Shown one piece after another: positions 7,106-18,177 of a stretch of DNA of 64,000 nucleotides (positions are counted from its first letter, which is position 1; every line of letters begins with the position of its first letter). A program made the position numbers and the translations under genes. This stretch comes from Cellulosimicrobium cellulans (GTDB lineage Bacteria; Actinomycetota; Actinomycetes; Actinomycetales; Cellulomonadaceae), in assembly GCF_016921195.1 (NCBI RefSeq), contig NZ_JAFGYF010000005.1, forward strand, positions 124,001-188,000, given 5' to 3'. The notes under the pieces were generated by a model. It had not been told where the DNA came from. It made no database searches and worked only from the letters and a program-made list of their open reading frames with translations.

Positions 7106-7459
7106 GTGAGATCCGTCAGGCAGTGCTCGCGCACGGCGTGCGTCCGTGCCGCCGTCGCGACCCTCACCTACGTCTACGCCGACTCCACGGCGGTCCTGGG
7201 CCCGCTCGCGCACCTCGCCGAGCCGCACAGCTACGACCTGTGCGCCGAGCACGCGGAACGCCTCACCGCGCCGCGCGGCTGGGAGGTCGTGCGTCTGTCG
7301 CCGCAGTTCGTCGAGACCGGCCCGAGCGACGACGACCTGTCAGCGCTCGCGGACGCGGTGCGCGAGGCCGGCAAGGTGCGGACGGAGCCCGAGCCGCCGG
7401 ACGTCACCGAGGTCGGACGACGTGGTCACCTGCGCGTGCTGCGCGCCGAGGGCGACTGA
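7106..7459 (+). CDS. DUF3499 family protein
   Basis: A 117-residue protein starting at GTG (MRSVRQCSRTAC). The CSRTAC pair near the start and the later YDLCAEHAERL segment provide three Cys and a His, suggesting a small metal-binding or zinc-ribbon fold. This arrangement, followed by RGWEVVRLSP, is the DUF3499 signature. The family is restricted to Actinobacteria and has no assigned function as far as I know. It lies 40 bases upstream of the phosphomannomutase gene in the same direction and is likely in the same transcript. Confidence 0.85.
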   Translation: MRSVRQCSRTACVRAAVATLTYVYADSTAVLGPLAHLAEPHSYDLCAEHAERLTAPRGWEVVRLSPQFVETGPSDDDLSALADAVREAGKVRTEPEPPDVTEVGRRGHLRVLRAEGD

Positions 7460-7499
7460 CCCGACGCACCCCGTGCCCCGCCTCGGTAGGGTGGGCGGC

Positions 7500-8975
7500 G
7501 TGACGACCGACCTCTCCCACCTCATCAAGGCGTACGACGTCCGCGGCACCGTCCCGGACCAGCTCAACCCCCGGGTGGCGAAGGCCATCGGTGCCGCGTT
7601 CGGTCGGGCGGTGGTCCTGCCCGAGGTTCCCGTCGCGGACGGCGACGCGCCGGCCCGGGCGAGCGTCGTCGTCGGGCACGACATGCGCGACTCCGGGCCC
7701 GAGCTCGTCGACGCGTTCGCCGCGGGTCTCGCGGAGGCCGGGGTCGAGGTCGTGCGGATCGGGCTGTGCTCCACGGACGGGCTCTACCACGCGTCCGGCG
7801 CGCTGGGCGTGCCCGGTGCCATGTTCACGGCGAGCCACAACCCGGCCGTCTACAACGGGATCAAGCTGTGCCGCGCGGGGGCTCGTCCCGTGGGGCAGGA
7901 CTCGGGGCTCGCGGAGGTGCGCCGACTCGCGGAGGGCTACCTCGACGAGGGCCTCCCGGACCCCGCGGACGACCCGGGATCGGTCACGGACCGCGACACG
8001 CTCGCGGACTATGCGGCGTTCCTGCGCTCGCTGGTCGACCTGTCGGGGATCCGGCCGCTCAAGGTCGTCGTGGACGCGGGCAACGGGATGGGCGGCTACA
8101 CCGTCCCAGCGGTGCTCGGCACGGGTGCCGGGCTGCCCGCGCTGCCGCTCGACGTCGTGCCGCTGTACTTCGAGCTCGACGGCACGTTCCCGAACCACGA
8201 GGCGAACCCGCTCGACCCGGAGAACCTGCGCGACCTCCAGGCCGCCGTCGTGGAGCACGGCGCCGACCTCGGGCTCGCGTTCGACGGTGACGCCGACCGC
8301 TGCTTCGTCGTCGACGAGCAGGGTGACCCGGTGTCGCCGTCGGCCATCACGGCGCTCGTCGGCCTGCGCGAGGTCGCCAAGGAGGTCGAGGCCGGGCGCA
8401 CGCCGACCGTGATCCACAACCTCATCACCTCGCGCGCCGTGCCCGACTTCCTCGGCGCCGCGGGCGCGCGGACCGTGCGCACGCGCGTCGGCCACTCGTT
8501 CATCAAGGCGGAGATGGCGGACAACGACGCCGTGTTCGGCGGCGAGCACAGCGCGCACTACTACTTCCGCGACTTCTTCTTCGCGGACACCGGGATGCTC
8601 GCGGCGATGCACGTGCTCGCCGCGCTCGGGTCGCAGCCGCACTCGCTGTCGGCGCTGGGGGAGATGTACGAGCCGTACGTCGCCTCGGGCGAGATCAACT
8701 CGACCGTTGCCGACGTGCGCGCGGCCCGGGCGCGCGTCGTCGAGGCCTACGTGACGCAGCAGGGCGGGGGCCCGGTCGAGGTCGACGAGCTCGACGGGCT
8801 GACCGTCTCGCACTGGGACTCCCACCCGCAGTGGTGGTTCAACCTCCGCGCCTCGAACACCGAGCCGCTGCTGCGGCTCAACGTCGAGGCGGCCGACGAG
8901 GACATCATGGAGAAGGTGCGCGACGACGTCCTGTCGCTCGTGCGCACGCACGACGACGACGAGGAGCGAGCATGA
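7500..8975 (+). CDS. manB: phosphomannomutase/phosphoglucomutase
   Basis: This 491-residue enzyme interconverts mannose 6-phosphate and mannose 1-phosphate (and often the glucose phosphates), feeding GDP-mannose and wall glycan synthesis. All four alpha-D-phosphohexomutase signatures are visible: the active-site loop TASHNP with the phosphoserine at about residue 112, the Mg loop DGDADR at about 262-267, the sugar-binding GEHSAHYYF, and the phosphate-binding RASNTEPLLRLN near the C-terminus. The start is the GTG (MTTDLSHLIKAYDVRG); the frame is open upstream but that extension overlaps DUF3499. Its stop overlaps the start of the Trm112 gene (ATGA). The mannose-6-phosphate isomerase gene that often follows in relatives is not present. 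Confidence 0.95.
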   Translation: MTTDLSHLIKAYDVRGTVPDQLNPRVAKAIGAAFGRAVVLPEVPVADGDAPARASVVVGHDMRDSGPELVDAFAAGLAEAGVEVVRIGLCSTDGLYHASGALGVPGAMFTASHNPAVYNGIKLCRAGARPVGQDSGLAEVRRLAEGYLDEGLPDPADDPGSVTDRDTLADYAAFLRSLVDLSGIRPLKVVVDAGNGMGGYTVPAVLGTGAGLPALPLDVVPLYFELDGTFPNHEANPLDPENLRDLQAAVVEHGADLGLAFDGDADRCFVVDEQGDPVSPSAITALVGLREVAKEVEAGRTPTVIHNLITSRAVPDFLGAAGARTVRTRVGHSFIKAEMADNDAVFGGEHSAHYYFRDFFFADTGMLAAMHVLAALGSQPHSLSALGEMYEPYVASGEINSTVADVRAARARVVEAYVTQQGGGPVEVDELDGLTVSHWDSHPQWWFNLRASNTEPLLRLNVEAADEDIMEKVRDDVLSLVRTHDDDEERA

Positions 8976-9250: not shown

Positions 9251-9949
9251 GTGAGCAACGCGCCCCAGGTCGTCATCCTGGCCGCTGGGATGGGAACCCG
9301 CCTCGGGCGGCCGTTCCCGAAGCCGCTGACCGAGCTCAAGGACGGGCGCACGATCCTCGCGCAGCAGCTGGGCAACGTCCGCGGCGCGTTCGGCCGTGAC
9401 GTCCAGGTGCTCGTCGTCGTCGGGTTCAAGCTCGAGCAGATCCTCGAGGCCGCGCCGGACGTGACGTTCGCATACAACGAGCTCTACGACCAGACGAACA
9501 CGTCCAAAAGTCTCCTCAAGGCGCTGCGCGCGACGGGGGACCGCGGCGTGCTCTGGATGAACGGCGACGTCGTGTTCGACCCCCGCGTCCTCGAGCGGCT
9601 CAAGCCGTACATCGAGTCCGGGCAGTCGTTCGTCAGTGTCAACACCGCGGCGGTGGGCGACGAGGAGGTCAAGTACACGGTCGACGCCGACGGCCGGATC
9701 GACGAGCTCTCGAAGACGGTCCAGGGAGCGCTCGGCGAGGCCGTCGGCATCAACTTCGTCGCGCCGGCGGACAAGGCGGCGCTCGTGGCACGGCTCGCCG
9801 AGGTGGGCGACCAGGACTACTTCGAGCGCGGCGTCGAGGTTGCGATCGAGAAGGACGGGCTCCAGGTCGTGCCGGTCGACGTCTCCGACCTGTACGCCGT
9901 CGAGGTGGACTTCGCCGAGGACCTCGATCGGGCGAACGAGTTCCTCTGA
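9251..9949 (+). CDS. LicC-like nucleotidyltransferase (phosphocholine cytidylyltransferase family)
   Basis: A 232-residue protein starting at GTG with a good GAAAGGA site. It has the nucleotidyltransferase signature ILAAGMGTRLG followed by the Lys motif PFPKPLTEL. The segment YNELYDQTNTSKSLLKALRA near residues 75-95 matches the LicC/choline-phosphate cytidylyltransferase branch, whose members read similarly (YNPFY..TNN..SL). Metal-binding Asp lies in WMNGDVVFD, and a second acidic site in YAVEVDFAEDLDRA. The expected reaction is activation of a phosphorylated alkanolamine or sugar with CTP. A LicD-like transferase is encoded 1.3 kb downstream on the opposite strand, so the pair may activate and transfer a phospho-substituent onto a wall glycan. 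The substrate cannot be read from sequence. Confidence 0.8.
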   Translation: MSNAPQVVILAAGMGTRLGRPFPKPLTELKDGRTILAQQLGNVRGAFGRDVQVLVVVGFKLEQILEAAPDVTFAYNELYDQTNTSKSLLKALRATGDRGVLWMNGDVVFDPRVLERLKPYIESGQSFVSVNTAAVGDEEVKYTVDADGRIDELSKTVQGALGEAVGINFVAPADKAALVARLAEVGDQDYFERGVEVAIEKDGLQVVPVDVSDLYAVEVDFAEDLDRANEFL

Positions 9950-9969
9950 ACCACCCGCACGACACCAAC

Positions 9970-9999
9970 GGGCCGGTCTCCCCGGGAGGAGACCGGCCC
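9970..9999. terminator. bidirectional terminator between convergent genes
   Basis: A perfect 12-bp stem (GGGCCGGTCTCC with GGAGACCGGCCC) around a 6-base loop lies 20 bases after the LicC-like gene and 22 bases after the stop of the opposing GT2 gene. The symmetry would serve both strands. No U-tract, as is common in GC-rich Actinobacteria. Confidence 0.8.
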
Positions 10000-10021
10000 G
10001 CCCTCGTTCCGCCGGCCGCGG

Positions 10022-10951
10022 TCAGCCTGCGCTCGGCGCCTTCGCCGAGCGCTGCGGGAACTGCGGCTGCGGGTTGAACCGGATGCCGGCGAGAAGCTGG
10101 CGGACCATCTGCACCTGGAGATTGCGCGGGACCCCGCCGCGACGCATCTTGCCCATCACGGTCTTCACGTACGTGATCCACGAAAGCTTGCCCTCGTAGT
10201 GCCAGCGGTACGACGACTGGTTGCGGGCGCCGTACTTGAACTTCCAGACGTTCTGCGCCGTGATCTGGCCGTAGTTCACGCCCTTGTTGTCGCCCATGTC
10301 GTGCACGACGTAGCTGTCCAGCACCTGGATTCCAGGGCGCGTGCGGCTCGAGAGACGCTTGGTGAACTCCTTGTCGTCGTACCAGATGAAGTACTCGGCG
10401 AGGGGCAGGCCGTGCTCCTCGACGGTCCAGCGCGGCAGCAGCACGGACACGAACGTGCACTCGCGGACCTTGACCGAGCTCAGCCCCTGGACGAGGTAGC
10501 GGGGCCAGTCCCACGTGGTGACGGCCTCGTTCATCTCGCAGAGCTGGCCGTCGACGAACTTCACGACGGAGCACGCGAAGGGGACGCGGTCGTGGACGTG
10601 CTCCTCGACCGCGCGGTGCTCGTCGAGGAGCCGCCCGAGCGCGTCCGGCTCCGGGTAGCAGTCGTCGTCCATGATCCAGAAGAAGTCGGCGCCGAGGTCG
10701 TACGCCCGGCGCAAGCCGGCGGCGAATCCTCCCGCGCCCCCGACGTTCTCCGGCAGCGACAGGACGTGCACGTCCTCGTCGCCGGCGATCGAGCGCAGGT
10801 AGTCGCCCGTCCCGTCCGTCGATGCGTTGTCGACGAGCACGATCGTCCTCGGGCGGACGCTCGAGGCACGGATCGACGCGATGCCCTTCTTGAGCTTGTC
10901 GAGGCGGTTGTAGGTCACGACGACGGCCGCCACGTACGGGGTCTGGGTCAC
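10022..10951 (-). CDS. family 2 glycosyltransferase (GlfT-like GT-A fold)
   Basis: About 309 residues. The N-terminus AAVVVTYNRLDKLKKGI, the VLVDNASTDGT nucleotide-binding strand and the metal-binding FFWIMDDDCYPEP near residue 95 define a GT2 enzyme. PENVGGAGGFAAG and the later WYDDKEFTKRL resemble galactofuranosyl and rhamnosyl transferases of the GlfT1/GlfT2 type. It probably adds a sugar during assembly of the glycan exported by the nearby Wzm/Wzt. The GTG start (MTQTPYVAAVV) gives a clean GT2 N-terminus; the frame is open ~43 codons further but those residues look non-coding. It lies 47 bases downstream of the small coiled-coil gene and is likely in its transcript. Confidence 0.87.
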   Translation of the reverse strand: MTQTPYVAAVVVTYNRLDKLKKGIASIRASSVRPRTIVLVDNASTDGTGDYLRSIAGDEDVHVLSLPENVGGAGGFAAGLRRAYDLGADFFWIMDDDCYPEPDALGRLLDEHRAVEEHVHDRVPFACSVVKFVDGQLCEMNEAVTTWDWPRYLVQGLSSVKVRECTFVSVLLPRWTVEEHGLPLAEYFIWYDDKEFTKRLSSRTRPGIQVLDSYVVHDMGDNKGVNYGQITAQNVWKFKYGARNQSSYRWHYEGKLSWITYVKTVMGKMRRGGVPRNLQVQMVRQLLAGIRFNPQPQFPQRSAKAPSAG

Positions 10952-10998
10952 AGGGTCTGCTCGCTGTTCGTCGGGAGAAACGATGGACTGGAGGTCGG

Positions 10999-11223
10999 TC
11001 AGGCGGAGGGCGGACCACCGGCGAGACGAGTCTCCACGATCTCGGTGAGCTCCGCGATCCGGATGTTGTCGCGCCGGCACTCGTCGATCTCGGCGCGGAG
11101 TTCGCGCACGTCGTCGCGCAGCGCATTGATCTCGCGGGCGAGCTGAGCCTTGCTCGTGCTCCGGACGCGCTTCATCGTCGCGGGCGCGATGCGCTCGCCG
11201 AGCCGGAGGATGTGCTGCTTCAT
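10999..11223 (-). CDS. small coiled-coil protein (unknown function)
   Basis: A 74-residue protein whose ATG overlaps the stop of the LicD-methyltransferase gene (ATGA), with an AAGGA site eight bases upstream. The first ~30 residues are basic (LRLGERIAPATMKRVRSTSK). From about residue 30 a long charged helix with heptad-like spacing follows (INALRDDVRELRAEIDECRR, then RIAELTEIVETRL). I do not recognise the family. Translational coupling to the fusion gene and the following glycosyltransferase suggests it may be a scaffold for the glycan-modifying enzymes at the membrane; that is inference. Confidence 0.7.
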   Translation of the reverse strand: MKQHILRLGERIAPATMKRVRSTSKAQLAREINALRDDVRELRAEIDECRRDNIRIAELTEIVETRLAGGPPSA

Positions 11224-12797
11224 GCCGTCCTTGCCTTGTTCGTCGTGAGGTGGGTGATCACTGTGCCGCGAAGGCGGTCGCGCTCGCCGCCGTCGAGCGG
11301 GGTGGTGCCGGTGAGGCCCAGTCCGAGCGGCGCAAGCTCCTCGGAGATCTCGTCGAGCACGAGGTGCCACGTCGTCGGGTCGCGGAACGTCACCGCGGGG
11401 TCGGGCGCGGTGTCGACCACGAGGGTGACCTCGCCGCCTGCACGCACCACCTGGCGAAGAAGGCGCCAGGCGGTCGACCTGCCGTGGTGCCCCAGCCGCT
11501 CGACCAGATGCGTCGCCAGCGCGTGCACCCTGGGTCGCTCCGCGATCAGGGCGATGAGGCCAGCGGTGTCCCGTGAGTCGATGAGGTTGGCCCGGCGCCA
11601 CGACACGAGGCCGGCGGCCGCCTCGTCGGACGCGGACTGCGCGAGGCGGAGCGCCATCTCCGAGTAGTCGACGGCGACGACACGTCGACCGTGGGCCGCG
11701 AGGTGCCGCGCCGCAGCACCGAGTCCGCACCCGAGGTCGAGTACCGTGTCCCCCTCCGCCGTCCTGTCCAACAGGGAGTCCGCGCCCCGGAGGTCGGCGT
11801 CCTCGCCGGCGTGTGGGTTGTAGAGGTAGTGCTCCTCCCAGAAGTCGCGCTGGAAGTTGTACGACCCGAACCAGTTCCGGAAGCGCCGCGCCGTCGCGCG
11901 CGGGGTGCGGAGCTTGTACCCGGGCAGCGGGGTCCGCCAGTTCTCGTCGTAATTGACGACGAGCCAGTCCTGGGGCACCGCGGGAGCGGGGTAGTCGTGA
12001 CCCTCGAGGGTCACGGTCGAGAACGGCAGCATCGACGCCTGCTCCATGGGCCCGCGGACGTGGAACGGCTGGTTGATCTGCCCGTCGGGCGTGAAGAACG
12101 CCGTGAAGACGTCGATGTACCCGTCGACGAGGCCGTCGTCGCGCCGGAACGTGACCTGCAGGTGCGCGTTGCTGTGCCGAACGAGCTCGTAGCCGCGGGC
12201 CTCGAGCTCTCGCGCGACGACCGACTGCTCGATCGCGACGTCGGCAGGGTTCTCGTGCATGGAGAGGTAGGCGAGGTCCGCGTCGTCGTCGTGCGGGAGG
12301 ATCTTCCCGGACCGGACGGCGCCGAGGAGCGTGCCGCCGACGACGAACGGGAGCTTGTCGAGCTCGCGCAGGAGCGCCACGAGCGTGTCGAGCCGGTCGA
12401 GGAGCCGCTCCTTCAGGCCGGTGGCATCGCCGTCGAAGGTCTTTCCGAGCCGCCCCCACTTGTTCATGGCGACGTGGCGACCCGTCGCGTCGACGACCCG
12501 GATCGGTCCGTCCCCGGTGCCGATCTGGACGTCGCGCGTCCAAAGCACCCTCCCGGTGGCCGAGTCGCACAACGAGATCTCGGTCCTGCCGTCCAGGAAC
12601 GGGCGCAGCGGCGCCGGCCAGGCGTGCTCCAGCCTCTCTCGAGCGGACGGGTTGGAGACGAGGTCGATCGACCAGACTCGGTACCCGTCGAGGAGCACGT
12701 CGACCGACGAGACGTCCGTCGGGACAGGTGCAGGGAGGCGGATCTCCGCGGCGCTGACGTCCAGGTGATCCGGGCGGGTCGCGGTGTGGCGGTGCAT
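11220..12797 (-). CDS. LicD-like transferase fused to a class I methyltransferase
   Basis: About 525 residues in three parts. Residues 1-130 are a beta-rich region with no family recognised. Residues ~145-290 are a LicD-like nucleotidyltransferase-fold domain: FVVGGTLLGAVRSGKILPHD then DDADLAY is the LicD/fukutin signature with its Asp metal ligands, followed by DVFTAFF. Residues ~345-525 are a SAM-dependent methyltransferase with motif I VLDLGCGLGAAARHLA, the acidic loop VVAVDYSEMAL and a C-terminal beta-sheet. LicD enzymes move phosphocholine-type groups from CDP carriers to glycans; the methyltransferase could act on the same substituent or on the sugar. The start is uncertain: ATG at 12797 lacks a clear ribosome site and the frame is open to 13010. 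The 5' end faces the divergent GlfT2 gene. Confidence 0.82.
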   Translation of the reverse strand: MHRHTATRPDHLDVSAAEIRLPAPVPTDVSSVDVLLDGYRVWSIDLVSNPSARERLEHAWPAPLRPFLDGRTEISLCDSATGRVLWTRDVQIGTGDGPIRVVDATGRHVAMNKWGRLGKTFDGDATGLKERLLDRLDTLVALLRELDKLPFVVGGTLLGAVRSGKILPHDDDADLAYLSMHENPADVAIEQSVVARELEARGYELVRHSNAHLQVTFRRDDGLVDGYIDVFTAFFTPDGQINQPFHVRGPMEQASMLPFSTVTLEGHDYPAPAVPQDWLVVNYDENWRTPLPGYKLRTPRATARRFRNWFGSYNFQRDFWEEHYLYNPHAGEDADLRGADSLLDRTAEGDTVLDLGCGLGAAARHLAAHGRRVVAVDYSEMALRLAQSASDEAAAGLVSWRRANLIDSRDTAGLIALIAERPRVHALATHLVERLGHHGRSTAWRLLRQVVRAGGEVTLVVDTAPDPAVTFRDPTTWHLVLDEISEELAPLGLGLTGTTPLDGGERDRLRGTVITHLTTNKARTA

Positions 12798-13034
12798 CGG
12801 GAACCAATCGGATGGAGGTGGGATCGTCGCGAGCGACGCGCGCGGTACCCCCGGAGTGTACGTGAACCGGCATGCCGGTCGCTCCTGTGAACACGAGCCG
12901 TACGTTCTGTGAACTCGGCCGTCGGGACGCGTGTCCGAGGTGCGGGGCGAGTACCCTGTGCCAGCGGGTGCGGTGGCGACGCAGCGTCGTCGCAGTGCCC
13001 GGACTCCCATCCCCTACGACGATCGAGGCGTGCC

Positions 13035-14888
13035 GTGACTACTGTCCAGAACGTCGTCTTTCCCACCGACCTGGACAAGCTCCCGCTTTATGTCGAGAGT
13101 CCGCGTGACGCCACGTCGTCGATCGACCTGGTCTCACGGCGATCCGCACGCCTGATCGCGGGCAGCGAAGTGTCGTTCGCGTCGTACTTCAACGCGTTCC
13201 CCCTGATGCACTGGGCGGCCAACACGTCGGCCGGCGCGGTCACGCTGGTTCTTGAGCTGTCGGGGCGCGGTCAGGTGCGCGTCGTCCGGACCGACGCCCG
13301 AGGACAGGCTGCCCGGCTGGACGCCGTGCGCTTCGAGGGCGAGGAGACCGTCCGTCTCTCCGTCCCAACCGCGGGTGCCGCCGACGGCGGGTGGTGCTGG
13401 TTCGAGCTCACGGCGTCGTCCGACGTGGAGCTCATCTCCGGGCGCTGGGAGGTCGACGCCGTGCCCGCAGAGGGCACCGTGACGGTGGCGATCACCACGT
13501 TCAACAAGCCGGACTACTGCGTGCGCACCCTCGGCGCACTTGGTGCGGACGACGACGTGCTGGCGGTCCTCGACCGCGTGGTCGTGGTCGACCAGGGGAC
13601 GCAGAAGGTCGCGGCCGAGTCGGGCTTCGCGGACGCGCAGGACGGGCTCCAGGGCCGGCTGCACATCGTGGACCAGCCCAACCTGGGTGGTTCGGGCGGC
13701 TTCTCGCGCGGGATGATCGAGGCGATGGCCGCGGGCTCGACCCACGTGATGCTTCTCGACGACGACGTCGCGATCGAGCCCGAGAGCATCTTCCGGGCTG
13801 TGCGCTTCGCCGACGCGTGCTCGCGGCCGACGATCGTCGGTGGGCACATGTTCGACATGTACCGCCCGACAAACCTGCATGCCGTGAGCGAGATCGTGCA
13901 GCAGTCGAACTTCATGTGGGGACCCGCCGACCCCGACCACCGGCTCGTGGACTTCTCGGAGGAGTCGCTGCGCGCGACGCGCTGGCTGCACCGTCGCCCG
14001 TCGGCCGACTACAACGGCTGGTGGATGTGCCTCGTCCCCACCGCGGTGGTGCGCGAGATCGGGCTCTCGATGCCGTACTTCATCAAGTGGGACGATGCCG
14101 AGTACGGGCTCCGGGCGAAGTCGGCGGGCGTCCCGACCGTCTCGCTGCCTGGCGTCGCGCTCTGGCACATCACGTGGCAGGACAAGGACGACGCGATCGA
14201 CTGGCAGGCGTACTTCCACGCGCGCAACCGGATCGTCTCCGGACTGCTCCACTCGGTCCGCGACAACGGCGGCGCGCTCCTCGCCGACAGCAGCCGTCTC
14301 AACCTCAAGCACCTGCTGTCGATGCAGTACTACGCCGCGACCCTGCGCAACACCGCGATCCGTGACGTGCTCCAGGGCCCGGACCAGCTGCACGCGTCGA
14401 TGGGGACCCGTCTGGGCGAACTGCGGGCGATGTCCAAGGGCTTCGGCGAGGCCCGCACATACACGGCGGAGGATCCCGCGCCGCCGGCCGCTCACGGGGA
14501 CGTCCCGCCCTCGGGGCGGGACCGCGGCCCACGTGGTGTTGCGCTCGCGCTCTTCACGCTCCGCGCGATCGCGCGCCAGCTCGTCGTCCCCGTGAGTGCC
14601 GAGCAGCGCCGGCGGCCCGACGCCCAGCTCGAGCGACGGCAGGCCGTGTGGTGGGAGCTGCCTCGGCACGACAGCGTCCTGGTCCTCGCGGGCGAGAACC
14701 GGACCGGAACCTGGTACCGGCGCGACCGCAGGGCGTTCGTCTCCTTGGGGTGGGAGTCGATGCGCCTGCACCGCGAGCTCAGGCGTCGGTGGCCGGCGCT
14801 CCAGGAGGCGTACCGCGGAAGGGCGGACGAGCTCGTCTCCCCGAGGGCGTGGCGCGAGACGATTGGCATCGTTGCCGGTGATGACTGA
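13035..14888 (+). CDS. glfT2: GlfT2-like galactofuranosyltransferase (galactan polymerase type)
   Basis: About 617 residues from a GTG start (MTTVQNVVFPTD), close to the ~637 of mycobacterial GlfT2. Parts in order: an N-terminal beta domain (to ~150), a GT-A domain (TVTVAITTFNKPDYCVRTL, then metal-binding LLDDDVAIEP at 242-244), and a C-terminal helical domain. Further residues match the GlfT2 active site as I recall it: FIKWDDAEYGLR (Asp353/354) and ALWHITWQ (His378). GlfT2 polymerises UDP-galactofuranose into lipid-linked galactan at the cytoplasmic face. The two downstream genes encode a matching exporter, which strengthens the call. Linkage pattern is not readable. It shares a ~240-bp divergent region with the LicD fusion gene. 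Confidence 0.88.
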   Translation: MTTVQNVVFPTDLDKLPLYVESPRDATSSIDLVSRRSARLIAGSEVSFASYFNAFPLMHWAANTSAGAVTLVLELSGRGQVRVVRTDARGQAARLDAVRFEGEETVRLSVPTAGAADGGWCWFELTASSDVELISGRWEVDAVPAEGTVTVAITTFNKPDYCVRTLGALGADDDVLAVLDRVVVVDQGTQKVAAESGFADAQDGLQGRLHIVDQPNLGGSGGFSRGMIEAMAAGSTHVMLLDDDVAIEPESIFRAVRFADACSRPTIVGGHMFDMYRPTNLHAVSEIVQQSNFMWGPADPDHRLVDFSEESLRATRWLHRRPSADYNGWWMCLVPTAVVREIGLSMPYFIKWDDAEYGLRAKSAGVPTVSLPGVALWHITWQDKDDAIDWQAYFHARNRIVSGLLHSVRDNGGALLADSSRLNLKHLLSMQYYAATLRNTAIRDVLQGPDQLHASMGTRLGELRAMSKGFGEARTYTAEDPAPPAAHGDVPPSGRDRGPRGVALALFTLRAIARQLVVPVSAEQRRRPDAQLERRQAVWWELPRHDSVLVLAGENRTGTWYRRDRRAFVSLGWESMRLHRELRRRWPALQEAYRGRADELVSPRAWRETIGIVAGDD

Positions 14889-14966
14889 CTGCGTGGCCGG
14901 GTCGTCCGGCAGGGATAAGGTGTGCCACGGTCTCGCGTGCGAGGCATCGAGCACGTGGAGGCTGAA

Positions 14967-15785
14967 GTGAGTGGTTCAGGCGTCGTCGCGGCGAGCAACA
15001 GGCCGATGACGCTGTGGAGAGCGCGTTCGGTGCTCGGCCTGCTCGTCCGGCGCGACCTCAAGGTGCGGTACGCGGACTCGCTGCTCGGTTACTTCTGGTC
15101 GATCCTCGACCCGCTGCTCATGGCGGCGGTGTACTGGTTCGTCTTCACCAAGATCTTCCCGCGCCCGATGGGCGAGGAGCCGTACATCATCTTCCTGCTC
15201 GCTGCCCTGCTGCCCTGGACGTGGTTCCAGAACTGCGTCGGCGACAGCGCCCGCTCCCTGCGGCAGGACTCCAGGCTCGTCCGGTCGACCCGTCTCCCGC
15301 GGGAGGTCTGGGTCATGAGGGTTGTGCTCTCCAAGACGGTGGAGTTCGGATTCTCCCTTCCTGTGCTCGCGGTCTTCCTCCTCATCTACCACCCCCACGT
15401 GAACAGCTACCTCTGGCTCTTCCCGCTGGGGATTGTCATGCAGCTCGTCCTGCTCGCCGGTCTCGGGCTCCTGCTCGCCCCGCTCGAGGTTCTGCTGCGC
15501 GATATCGACCCGCTCATCCGTGTCGCCATGCGGGTCCTCTTCTACGCGTCTCCGGTGTTGTACGGGCTTCAAGACGTCTACAACGCGGCGATCCCGGAAG
15601 TGTTGCAGACGCTCTACCTGCTCAACCCGATGACCGGCATCATCGCGGCTTTTCGCGCTGGATTCTTCCCGGGGATCGTGCACTGGGACGCGATCGCCAT
15701 GGCGGGGGCCGTGTCGGTCCTCACGCTCGTCGTCGGGTGGGTCGTCTTTGCGCGGAGCGAGCGCTCCGTGCTCAAGGAGCTCTGA
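14967..15785 (+). CDS. wzm: ABC-2 type polysaccharide exporter permease
   Basis: About 272 residues with six hydrophobic segments and the ABC-2 layout of polysaccharide permeases: LLVRRDLKVRYADSLLGYFW before the first membrane segment, LLPWTWFQNCVGDSARSL, and the exporter-type LFYASPVLYG. It is of the Wzm/RfbD kind (compare mycobacterial Rv3783). It would flip lipid-linked glycan to the outer face with the ATPase encoded immediately downstream. The GTG at 14967 is chosen because a GGAGG ribosome site sits five bases ahead. The frame is open to 14922. Its stop overlaps the start of the ATPase gene (TGATG). Confidence 0.92.
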   Translation: MSGSGVVAASNRPMTLWRARSVLGLLVRRDLKVRYADSLLGYFWSILDPLLMAAVYWFVFTKIFPRPMGEEPYIIFLLAALLPWTWFQNCVGDSARSLRQDSRLVRSTRLPREVWVMRVVLSKTVEFGFSLPVLAVFLLIYHPHVNSYLWLFPLGIVMQLVLLAGLGLLLAPLEVLLRDIDPLIRVAMRVLFYASPVLYGLQDVYNAAIPEVLQTLYLLNPMTGIIAAFRAGFFPGIVHWDAIAMAGAVSVLTLVVGWVVFARSERSVLKEL

Positions 15786-16531
15786 TGGTCAAGCCTGCGG
15801 GTCAGCCGGACCCGATCATCTCGGTCAAGGACGTCGGCGTGCAGTTCAACCGCGGCCGCCGTAGCGCGGGACTGCGCCAGATGATCCTGCGCGGCGACCG
15901 TGGCACGAGCCACGACTCGTTCTGGGCCCTGCGGAACGTCTCCTTTGACGTCGCGCCTGGGGAGGCGATCGGCGTCATCGGCCGTAACGGTCAGGGGAAG
16001 TCGACGCTGCTCAAGGTGGTTACTGGGGTCCTCATTCCGGACGAGGGCACGGCGACCGTCCGCGCCGAGGTGTCGCCGCTTATCGAGATCACTGGCGGCT
16101 TCGTGCCCGACCTCACCGGCCGGGAGAACATTTATCTTGCCGCGGGCCTGCACGGGATGTCGCGGAAGCTCATCGACGAGAAGTTCGACGAGATCGTGGA
16201 CTTCGCGGAAATCCGCAAGTTTCTGGACTCGCCGTACCGCCATTACTCCTCCGGCATGCAGGTGCGGCTCGCGTTCTCCGTCGTCTCCCAGCTTGACGGG
16301 CCGATCCTCCTGGTCGACGAGGTCCTCGCAGTCGGTGACAAGGCGTTCCGTGAGAAGTGCTATAAGCGCATCGACGAGCTGCTTGACGCGGGGCGGACGT
16401 TGTTCCTCGTGTCGCACAACAACGGCGACCTCAAACGGTTCTGCGAGCGGGGCCTCTACCTTCGCGGAGGGGAGTTGCGCGCGGACGGACCTCTCGGCGC
16501 GGTCTTGGAGCAGTACGCGAAGGAAGGCTGA
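15785..16531 (+). CDS. wzt: ABC polysaccharide exporter ATPase
   Basis: A 248-residue ATPase. Walker A is GRNGQGKST (Lys at ~72), the signature is HYSSGMQVRLAF, Walker B is ILLVDEVLAVGD and the switch His is in LVSHNNGD. FWALRNVSFDVAPGEAIGVIG is typical of the Wzt/RfbE/TagH branch. It lacks the C-terminal carbohydrate-binding extension of many Wzt proteins, so chain-end recognition is not apparent; it matches the short mycobacterial Rv3781 form. With the overlapping permease it exports the galactan-like polymer made upstream. It is the last intact gene before the transposase remnants. Confidence 0.93.
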   Translation: MVKPAGQPDPIISVKDVGVQFNRGRRSAGLRQMILRGDRGTSHDSFWALRNVSFDVAPGEAIGVIGRNGQGKSTLLKVVTGVLIPDEGTATVRAEVSPLIEITGGFVPDLTGRENIYLAAGLHGMSRKLIDEKFDEIVDFAEIRKFLDSPYRHYSSGMQVRLAFSVVSQLDGPILLVDEVLAVGDKAFREKCYKRIDELLDAGRTLFLVSHNNGDLKRFCERGLYLRGGELRADGPLGAVLEQYAKEG

Positions 16532-16746: not shown

Positions 16747-18030
16747 TCGTTGCACGAGCTCAAGGCGAGGTTCTTCGAGGTCGTTGACGACGTCGGTAGT
16801 ACGACGGTCGCTGCGCGCATGGTCGTGGTGAACCGGCACACGGCTGCGGGGTGGGTTCGGAAGGCTGGTCGCTGCTCCTAGAGGGCCGGGGTCATGGGCC
16901 ACATTCGCGCAAGGGTGAGTACGAGCAGCTTCGGCGCGCGGGAATGCCTCGACGGCGGGCTGCCGAGCAGGGAGTCAATGTGTGCGCACGGTGGAGGACT
17001 GGGACCACGGGGTGCGTAAGGCACGCGGGGGCTCGAATCTACCGGAGGGCCGGCGGGCGGACTAAAAGATGGGGGTGACTAGCCATGTCGATGCGTCCGC
17101 GGGGCTGTCGGTCGTTGGTGTTGAAGCCGAGCTGAACCCACGATTCTCGCGACGTTGCCCGAGCGGGAGCAGATCGCTGACCTGCGCCGCGAGGGCGTGT
17201 CCTTGCGGGATATCGGGCGGATGTCGGGTCGCGCGGCCTCGACGATTATTCGGGAGGTCGATGCTCGGTCGGTAGAGGGGTCTACCGCCCGAACGCCGCG
17301 CACCGAGCCCGGGTGGCATCCCGCGCGCGCCCCAACGCGTCCAAGCTCGGGACCGCCGGGCGGTTACGTGACTTCGTCCCCGAGGGGCTGCATTTGCGGT
17401 GGTCGCCGAGCAGATCTGCCACACTCTGACCAAGGAGTACCCCGACGCCTGCGCCGTGAGGTCGGCGCGCTGCGCACTGGACGCACCCGCCGCAAGCGCG
17501 GCCCGGATCAACGCCAACCCCGGTTCGTCGAGGAGATGGCGATAATCTCCGAGCGACCGCCCGAGATCGAAGGCCGAGCCGTACCCGGGCACTGGGAGGG
17601 CGATCTGATCGTCGGCACCGGGTCGCAGTCCGCGATTGTGACCCTTGGTCGAGCGCAGCACCCTTCGTCATTCTGCGGCGCCTGCCCGGCGGGAACAGCG
17701 CCGAGGAGGTCCGCGACGTCCTGACATCACTGATCACGACGCTGCCGGCGCACCTGCGCGGATCGGTGACCTGACACCAAGGCTGCGAGATGGCCGCGCA
17801 CAAGCAATTCACGATCGCCACGAACGTGCCGGTCTACTTCTGCGACCCCGCTCGCCCTGGCAACGAGGCTCGAACGAGAACGCCCAACGGGCTCCTGCGC
17901 CAGTGCTCTCCTGGGCACCGACCTGCGGGTACGGGGCCGAGGACCTGGAGCGCGTCGTACAGGGACTCAACGACCGACCACGCAAGACGCTCGACTGGTA
18001 CCCCAGCCGAGCGCCTGCGTGATCTCGCCT
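16744..18030 (+). pseudogene. decayed IS30-family transposase
   Basis: The plus strand reads as an IS30 transposase broken into several frames. Visible in order: an HTH start (VSLHELKARFF, then NRHTAAGWVRKAG), [26 protein letters not shown], then after a shift [19 protein letters not shown] and [10 protein letters not shown], then [18 protein letters not shown] with [15 protein letters not shown], then AAHKQFTIATNVPVYFCDPA, and finally TPAERLRDL. At least four frameshifts are needed to join these. The DDE acidic residues are therefore split over frames and no active transposase can be made. Terminal inverted repeats were not found by eye. It separates the glycan cluster from the osmolyte importer. 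Confidence 0.85.
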
Positions 18031-18177
18031 GCGGGATCTACTTACGGCCACATGAACCATGCGATGGTGCGACGATCGCCAAAGCGGCCCCCGCGGCGAC
18101 AGCCTTCGTCAGCGCAGCCGGGGCGCCCCGACGCGGCTGCGGTGAACCGAGGACCGCAGCGCGTCCGTCGCGCGGCG

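Follow-up and report, generated by a model that had tools for sequence, protein, structure and literature searches.

A 64,000-nucleotide stretch of the Cellulosimicrobium cellulans genome (RefSeq assembly GCF_016921195.1, contig NZ_JAFGYF010000005.1, positions 124,001 to 188,000; hereafter the window) encodes a LicD-type transferase fused to a class I S-adenosylmethionine (SAM) methyltransferase in a galactan gene cluster. We computed directly the domain make-up of this fusion, its catalytic and SAM-site residues, its pairing with a small DUF6752 protein, the exchange of its cytidine diphosphate (CDP) donor enzymes between loci and the mutual exclusion of the LicC-like cytidylyltransferase family and TagD. 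Tentatively, and at somewhat less than an even chance, we propose a cap-and-methylate module: a CDP-polyol would be the donor, the LicD domain would transfer to galactan, methylation would follow, the DUF6752 protein would dock the enzyme and the chain would be capped before export. More doubtful is the wider claim of a spacer-coupled terminator, widespread in Actinobacteria, in which LicD would add a polyol phosphate, to be methylated, from CDP-glycerol or CDP-ribitol, together with a LicC-type CDP-glycerol family that would replace TagD in about one fifth of 297 genomes drawn from the window's order. Three genes carry the argument:

9251..9949, plus strand: LicC-like (NTP_transf_3) cytidylyltransferase, 232 amino acids (NTP_transf_3 65.5 bits, cut-off 27)
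10999..11223, minus strand: DUF6752 protein, 74 amino acids, possible coiled coil (DUF6752 28.7 bits, cut-off 27)
11220..12797, minus strand: LicD and class I SAM methyltransferase fusion, 525 amino acids (Methyltransf_25 35.6 bits, cut-off 27)

The fusion, whose length is counted from the ATG implied by the end coordinate in an earlier note on this DNA, consists of an N-terminal beta-rich domain (residues ~10-120), a LicD-type domain (~125-300) and the methyltransferase domain (~312-522), in which the SAM-site residues are conserved. No kinase family was found among its Pfam matches. The LicD model (PF04991, cut-off 22.6 bits) scored 22.5 bits on the longest open reading frame (ORF), just below the cut-off, and 24.8 bits in a six-frame genome search, both matches spanning just 25 of the 227 profile positions. 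GTLLG..R, DDDxD and one more D further along are either invariant or conserved to 90% in an alignment of 53 fusions, and equally so in one of 32 LicD parts. A profile of the LicD part found FKRP, a ribitol-phosphate transferase, as its sole solved match (E 7.7e-12) with the motif acids aligned. Because the motifs are conserved and FKRP matches with its acids in register, the assignment does not reflect chance, a possibility that the earlier note had raised and that is hereby ruled out. Its claim that LicD is fused to a SAM methyltransferase was confirmed by the Methyltransf_25 score, the LicD motifs and the FKRP match.

Among the matches listed, fusions aligned across both domains occurred in 5 of the 297 genomes (six copies) and in one of 24 genomes drawn from the window's own family. 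Some match at E <= 0.001 was present in 208 of the 297; apart from these fusions, the matches listed are short and nearly all one-domain. A scan of named contigs yielded 107 relatives, of which 80 were kept: 73 with two domains (L036-L108; the alignment of L101 reaches only residue 379) and seven with LicD only. Sources included Leucobacter, Arthrobacter, Geodermatophilaceae, Microbacteriaceae and Actinomycetospora, among others. Together with the window and L032-L035, the two-domain loci gave 78 examined loci, some of them near-duplicates. The search of other genomes for the fusion and its neighbours that the earlier note had suggested uncovered a changing donor enzyme and a constant DUF6752 partner. 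Two clusters, L033 (8745-10328 and 13657-15108) and L057, carry two fusion copies, and behind each copy lies a separate DUF6752-type protein; in L033, TagD and Glf (UDP-galactopyranose mutase) adjoin the two copies. The contig of L099, which has an Arthrobacter-type cluster, is titled Vibrio cholerae, probably through mislabelling or contamination.

In the window, the stop codon of the fusion and the start codon of the DUF6752 gene overlap as ATGA, a common mark of coupled translation. Using a DUF6752 model retrained on the 3' flanks of fusions, we found a homologue at the 3' end of the fusion in all 70 loci tested (72 of 72 copies), 69 of them by a position window and the 70th (L052) in the same place inside an overlong ORF. 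In 12 loci the segment lies in the fusion's own reading frame. No match away from fusions was present among 17,223 ORFs, the two extra matches each lying behind a second fusion copy, one in L033 and one in L057. The matches near fusions are partly circular; of the two second copies, that of L057 had been one of three seeds, which leaves only the L033 copy outside the training. The lack of matches elsewhere does not depend on the training. A stricter motif was found at the fusion 3' end in 47 of the 70 loci and nowhere else. Heptad periodicity was significant in 37 of the 70 segments, compared with 5 of 46 control segments, which overlap one another. No mention of DUF6752 was found in the open-access literature searched. 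By analogy, the protein may be a spacer of the kind found in other bacterial glycan terminators.

The enzyme that would supply the donor differed between loci. Within the fetched stretches of the 78 loci we identified a LicC-like gene in seven (four close and three distant, the latter from Actinomycetospora), a TagD-type gene in five and IspD with a reductase in 29, and never two donor types in one locus (0 of 78). The TagD-type genes were called by motif, with CTP_transf_like confirmed for three; a glycerol-3-phosphate cytidylyltransferase model placed L033 above and L038 just below its cut-off. A short-chain reductase is fused to IspD in 28 of the 29 loci, while the separate IspD and reductase of L085 were counted as a pair by locus alone. 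For the IspD part of L034, the one fused enzyme searched, the four best solved matches included TarI-type enzymes, and IspD-reductase fusions have been described as CDP-ribitol makers (PMC4873967). A lone IspD, present in seven loci (L033, L038, L057, L058, L059, L062, L086), was excluded from the partner count. The genomes of L033 and L038 have no other full IspD, so that there it is probably a housekeeping enzyme; the 368 bits of the L038 enzyme are not independent, as it was in the building set of the IspD-reductase model. No IspF motif turned up when these seven loci and L085 were scanned for one, which leaves the housekeeping reading unconfirmed.

In a fusion tree, built by a quick method from 53 of the 80 copies, the clade of the window combines LicC-like loci (the window, L036, L032) with TagD loci (L033a, L038) at a value of 100 in the SH-like approximate likelihood ratio test (SH-aLRT). 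Its sister clade is Leucobacter, where all six tested genomes carry TagD outside the fetched stretches, away from the fusion, and none of the six a close LicC-like gene. Altogether, five changes of partner type were counted across 26 labelled rows, which is the pattern expected if one transferase family has interchangeable CDP-polyol makers. L034, L068-L071 and other Arthrobacter-type loci share a recurring set of IspD-reductase, fusion, glycoside hydrolase family 1 (GH1)-like protein and family 4 glycosyltransferase (GT4), often with a metallophosphoesterase, which is probably the same module serving a different polymer.

The three best matches of a seven-sequence LicC-like profile were LicC, PntC and inositol-1-phosphate cytidylyltransferase, followed by a 'nucleotidyl transferase' (4y7t) in fourth place and GlmU lower down. 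The single sequence reached E 0.01 only with inositol-1-phosphate cytidylyltransferase (E 0.0051, the best) and GlmU, both weakly, and did not reach LicC at that threshold. In a fold comparison PntC ranked best, above LicC, and GlmU and GalU equalled LicC, so that fold alone does not separate a LicC-type from a sugar-1-phosphate enzyme. The profile supports, from sequence comparison, placement in the LicC/PntC/inositol-1-phosphate cytidylyltransferase group and does not favour a sugar-1-phosphate enzyme, the alternative named in the earlier note; the LicC type claimed there stands by profile and fold, if not by the single-sequence search, with PntC the better fit in fold and GlmU and GalU as good a fit as LicC. 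'LicC-like' is used here for a family, not for a substrate. The family is separate from that of TagD in Pfam (NTP_transf_3 versus CTP_transf_like).

Across the 297 genomes (thresholds: LicC-like E <= 1e-30, TagD E <= 1e-35, strong PF04464 E <= 1e-60), 58 carried a LicC-like gene, 50 carried TagD and none carried both (Fisher test, kinship ignored, 8e-6). Among the 100 genomes with a strong PF04464 match, 44 had only LicC-like, 36 only TagD, 20 neither and none both (5e-13). Both kinds were found, in different genomes, within four families (f1, f6, f13, f15) and within one genus (g2). Such mutual exclusion is a common sign of two unrelated enzymes with one job, and it is simplest if both yield CDP-glycerol. 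A PF04464 glycerophosphotransferase, from the family of teichoic-acid polyol-phosphate transferases, lies within 7 kb of the LicC-like gene in 18 of 24 hand-picked, fusion-free neighbourhoods, about 0.29 being expected under independence, and three of the other six have a weak match 13-15 kb off. Strong PF04464 matches were present in 44 of the 58 LicC-like genomes. From these sequence patterns it looks as if the LicC-like family replaces TagD in PF04464 genomes. The window's own genome is the sole one without a PF04464 (Glyphos_transf) match among 26 LicC-like-bearing genomes searched; it also lacks a TagD match at E <= 1e-10, and has one full-length IspD.

Another CDP alcohol (inositol, mannitol, glycerate or aminoethylphosphonate), leading to an unusual galactan phosphodiester, would agree with the best single-sequence match to CTP:inositol-1-phosphate cytidylyltransferase and with PntC as the best fold match. 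It would also agree with CpgD, a COG1213 CTP:phosphoglycerate cytidylyltransferase that makes CDP-glycerate by TagD-like chemistry and is unrelated to TagD (PMC12275187). Further points in its favour are a mannitol-dehydrogenase-family gene that in L133 (10882-12492, by Pfam) adjoins LicC-like and PF04464 genes, and the cluster mate of this gene in L134; they might indicate a mannitol-phosphate polymer there. We consider this explanation improbable, as the exclusion of TagD is simplest with the same product, CDP-glycerol.

Slightly less probable still is the phospho-alkanolamine or choline reading of the earlier note, according to which CDP-choline or CDP-ethanolamine is the product of the LicC-like enzyme, galactan receives the phospho-alkanolamine through LicD, and N-methylation of this group by the methyltransferase follows. 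The profile does have LicC as its top solved match, yet PntC stands above it in fold, the enzymes that accompany the fusion elsewhere are makers of CDP-glycerol or CDP-ribitol, LicC-like genes occur near PF04464 and exclude TagD, and the nearly tied structural matches of the methyltransferase are not specific. Moreover, the own genome gave no match to Choline_kinase (PF01633, LicA-type; other kinase families such as PF01636 were not searched), a model that matches 5 of 14 control genomes. Betaine/choline-type transporter genes are located at 19.2-21.7 kb of the window, and their ATPase is also present in L036; no link to the galactan cluster was seen. Between them and the exporter genes lie broken ORFs (about 17060-18040), which we take to resemble the remnant of an IS30-type transposase. 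The added phosphate-linked small alcohol is thus more likely glycerol than choline.

The surrounding genes of the window are those of a galactan cluster with an ATP-binding cassette (ABC) exporter:

7146-8975, plus strand: phosphomannomutase/phosphoglucomutase, left of the LicC-like gene
about 10022..10954, minus strand: family 2 glycosyltransferase (GT2), GlfT1-like (Glycos_transf_2 75.3 bits on the longest ORF)
12909..14888, plus strand: GlfT2-type galactofuranosyltransferase (Glft2_N 87.5 bits, GlfT2_domain3 126.3 bits)
14922..15785, plus strand: Wzm-like ABC exporter permease (ABC2_membrane 62.8 bits)
15785..16531, plus strand: Wzt-like ABC ATPase, 248 amino acids (ABC_tran 64.7 bits in ORF 15014-16531)

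These Pfam matches bear out the earlier observation that a LicC-type and a LicD-type enzyme accompany galactan polymerase and exporter genes. Genes were taken as homology-supported ORFs, since calling by third-position GC missed genes. For the GlfT1-like gene a GTG after the DUF6752 gene was chosen as start (the longest ORF extends to 11080), and the real start of the GlfT2 gene is probably downstream of 12909. The NCBIfam models for GlfT1 (NF050113, 72.6 bits, cut-off 330) and Wzm (NF050109, 65.5 bits, cut-off 380) scored well below their cut-offs. The genome's single Glf match is on the same contig, some 20 kb to the left of the window. Convergent with the group of GlfT1-like, DUF6752 and fusion genes, the LicC-like gene does not form one operon with the fusion. 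Compared with C. cellulans and C. funkei, the nearest named relatives, the LicC-like protein is 97-98% identical and the fusion 70%. Against L036 (Cellulosimicrobium), the fusion (70%) and GlfT2 (81%) are likewise less conserved than the flanks (LicC-like 97%, phosphomannomutase 94%), as if a surface locus were diversifying or being exchanged.

At least one of GlfT1, GlfT2, Glf, Wzm and Wzt was found in 42 of the 78 fusion loci, and GlfT2 or Glf in all seven LicC-like loci versus 2 of the 29 IspD-type loci. A galactan-specific enzyme as a general rule was ruled out, as GlfT2 or Glf lies near only 32 of the 78 fusions.

Several observations weigh against the cap-and-methylate module. By the counts just given it is not galactan-specific, and for 37 of the 78 loci no donor enzyme was recognised within the stretch fetched. 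The lone IspD of L059 is one of three full IspDs in its genome and a possible further partner. LicC itself heads the solved matches of the LicC-like profile. The Fisher tests take no account of kinship, and LicC-like and TagD have just one genus in common; of the 18 PF04464 matches near LicC-like genes, 14 are strong and four weak (27-51 bits), and 14 of the 58 LicC-like genomes are without a strong one. With 74 amino acids, the window's DUF6752 protein would make a short ruler, and its segment lacks a heptad signal (p 0.59). In WbdD-type systems of chain termination, the exporter's Wzt has a cap-reading domain; such a C-terminal extra domain was looked for and is absent from the window's Wzt, which with only 248 amino acids is unlikely to read a cap. 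The last points would suit polyol phosphates added as repeated side groups along the galactan, with DUF6752 as a mere dimer or docking piece. A phospho-glycero-beta-galactofuranan is in fact known from Bifidobacterium, where it occurs in B. bifidum (PMC8551831). We regard this arrangement as rather unlikely, because the known terminators are the better parallel for a methyltransferase that is joined to a phosphotransferase and constantly accompanied by a helical protein.

For the cap-and-methylate module we envisage the following course. From CTP and a polyol phosphate such as glycerol-3-phosphate, the LicC-like enzyme would form a CDP-polyol, with CDP-glycerol the likeliest product, in TagD's place, as suggested by the TagD exclusion and the gene neighbours. 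CpgD (PMC12275187) and the phospho-glycero-beta-galactofuranan of B. bifidum (PMC8551831) are precedents for this donor side. The substrate is probably a polyol; that it is glycerol falls only a little short of an even chance. The LicD domain, assigned by computed fold and motif, would move the polyol phosphate to cytoplasmic galactan built by the GlfT1/GlfT2-type enzymes, an acceptor proposed from the cluster. The fused methyltransferase, with its computed SAM site, would methylate the added group or the sugar beneath. The DUF6752 protein, for which the constant pairing was computed and the role is inferred, may dock or space the enzyme on the polymerase or membrane. If it holds the enzyme in the way that a coiled coil does in WbdD-type terminators, the added group probably caps the end of the chain; by this analogy, an end position has about an even chance. 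In keeping with the gene order, the capped galactan would then be exported by Wzm/Wzt.

This could explain how actinobacteria without TagD make CDP-glycerol for wall polymers, and it would put forward a candidate for the enzyme that ends the chains of a Gram-positive galactan, a counterpart of the length-setting terminators of Gram-negatives; 'LicC/LicD' labels need not imply phosphocholine. The parts are known, and their combination and the donor swap look new. We found no description of LicD, methyltransferase and galactan together in the open-access literature (most subscription papers lie outside this search), and no title on such a module among the matches listed for LicD, methyltransferase, teichoic acid and actinobacteria (including PMC10434233).

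Among known systems, the closest parallels are ABC-exported O antigens, in which a coiled-coil ruler is linked to the terminator and two of the known terminators are methyltransferase-kinases (PMC11231755). WbdD and O7 ORF6 (E. coli O9a, Klebsiella O3/O7) likewise combine a methyltransferase and a phosphate-adding domain in one protein, with an associated coiled coil, which is only a possible one here, in an ABC-exporter glycan cluster (PMC11231755). They differ in that the window's enzyme is LicD-type, using a CDP donor, and not a kinase, its helical part is mostly encoded on its own by a DUF6752 gene, its Wzt has no extra domain and its host is actinobacterial. WbdD was not among the structural matches listed, which the methyltransferase domain filled, so that this is uninformative either way. 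The Lic-1 phosphocholine pathway (LicC/LicD) shares the cytidylyltransferase family and the LicD catalytic motif, whereas here there is no Choline_kinase match, a methyltransferase and DUF6752 are added and the fusion relatives pair with CDP-polyol makers. FKRP/FKTN with ISPD (CDP-ribitol) resemble the fusion in the sole solved LicD match and in the IspD and reductase of 29 of the 78 loci; in contrast, the fusion is bacterial and joined to a methyltransferase, and the window's donor enzyme is not IspD-type. With the wall teichoic acid enzymes TagD/TagF the likeness is that the LicC-like enzyme takes TagD's place in PF04464 genomes, although it belongs to another protein family and the window's genome has no PF04464 match. 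CpgD, finally, is also a COG1213 enzyme with TagD-like chemistry, but its reaction is on glycerate and serves a sphingolipid of Caulobacter (PMC12275187).

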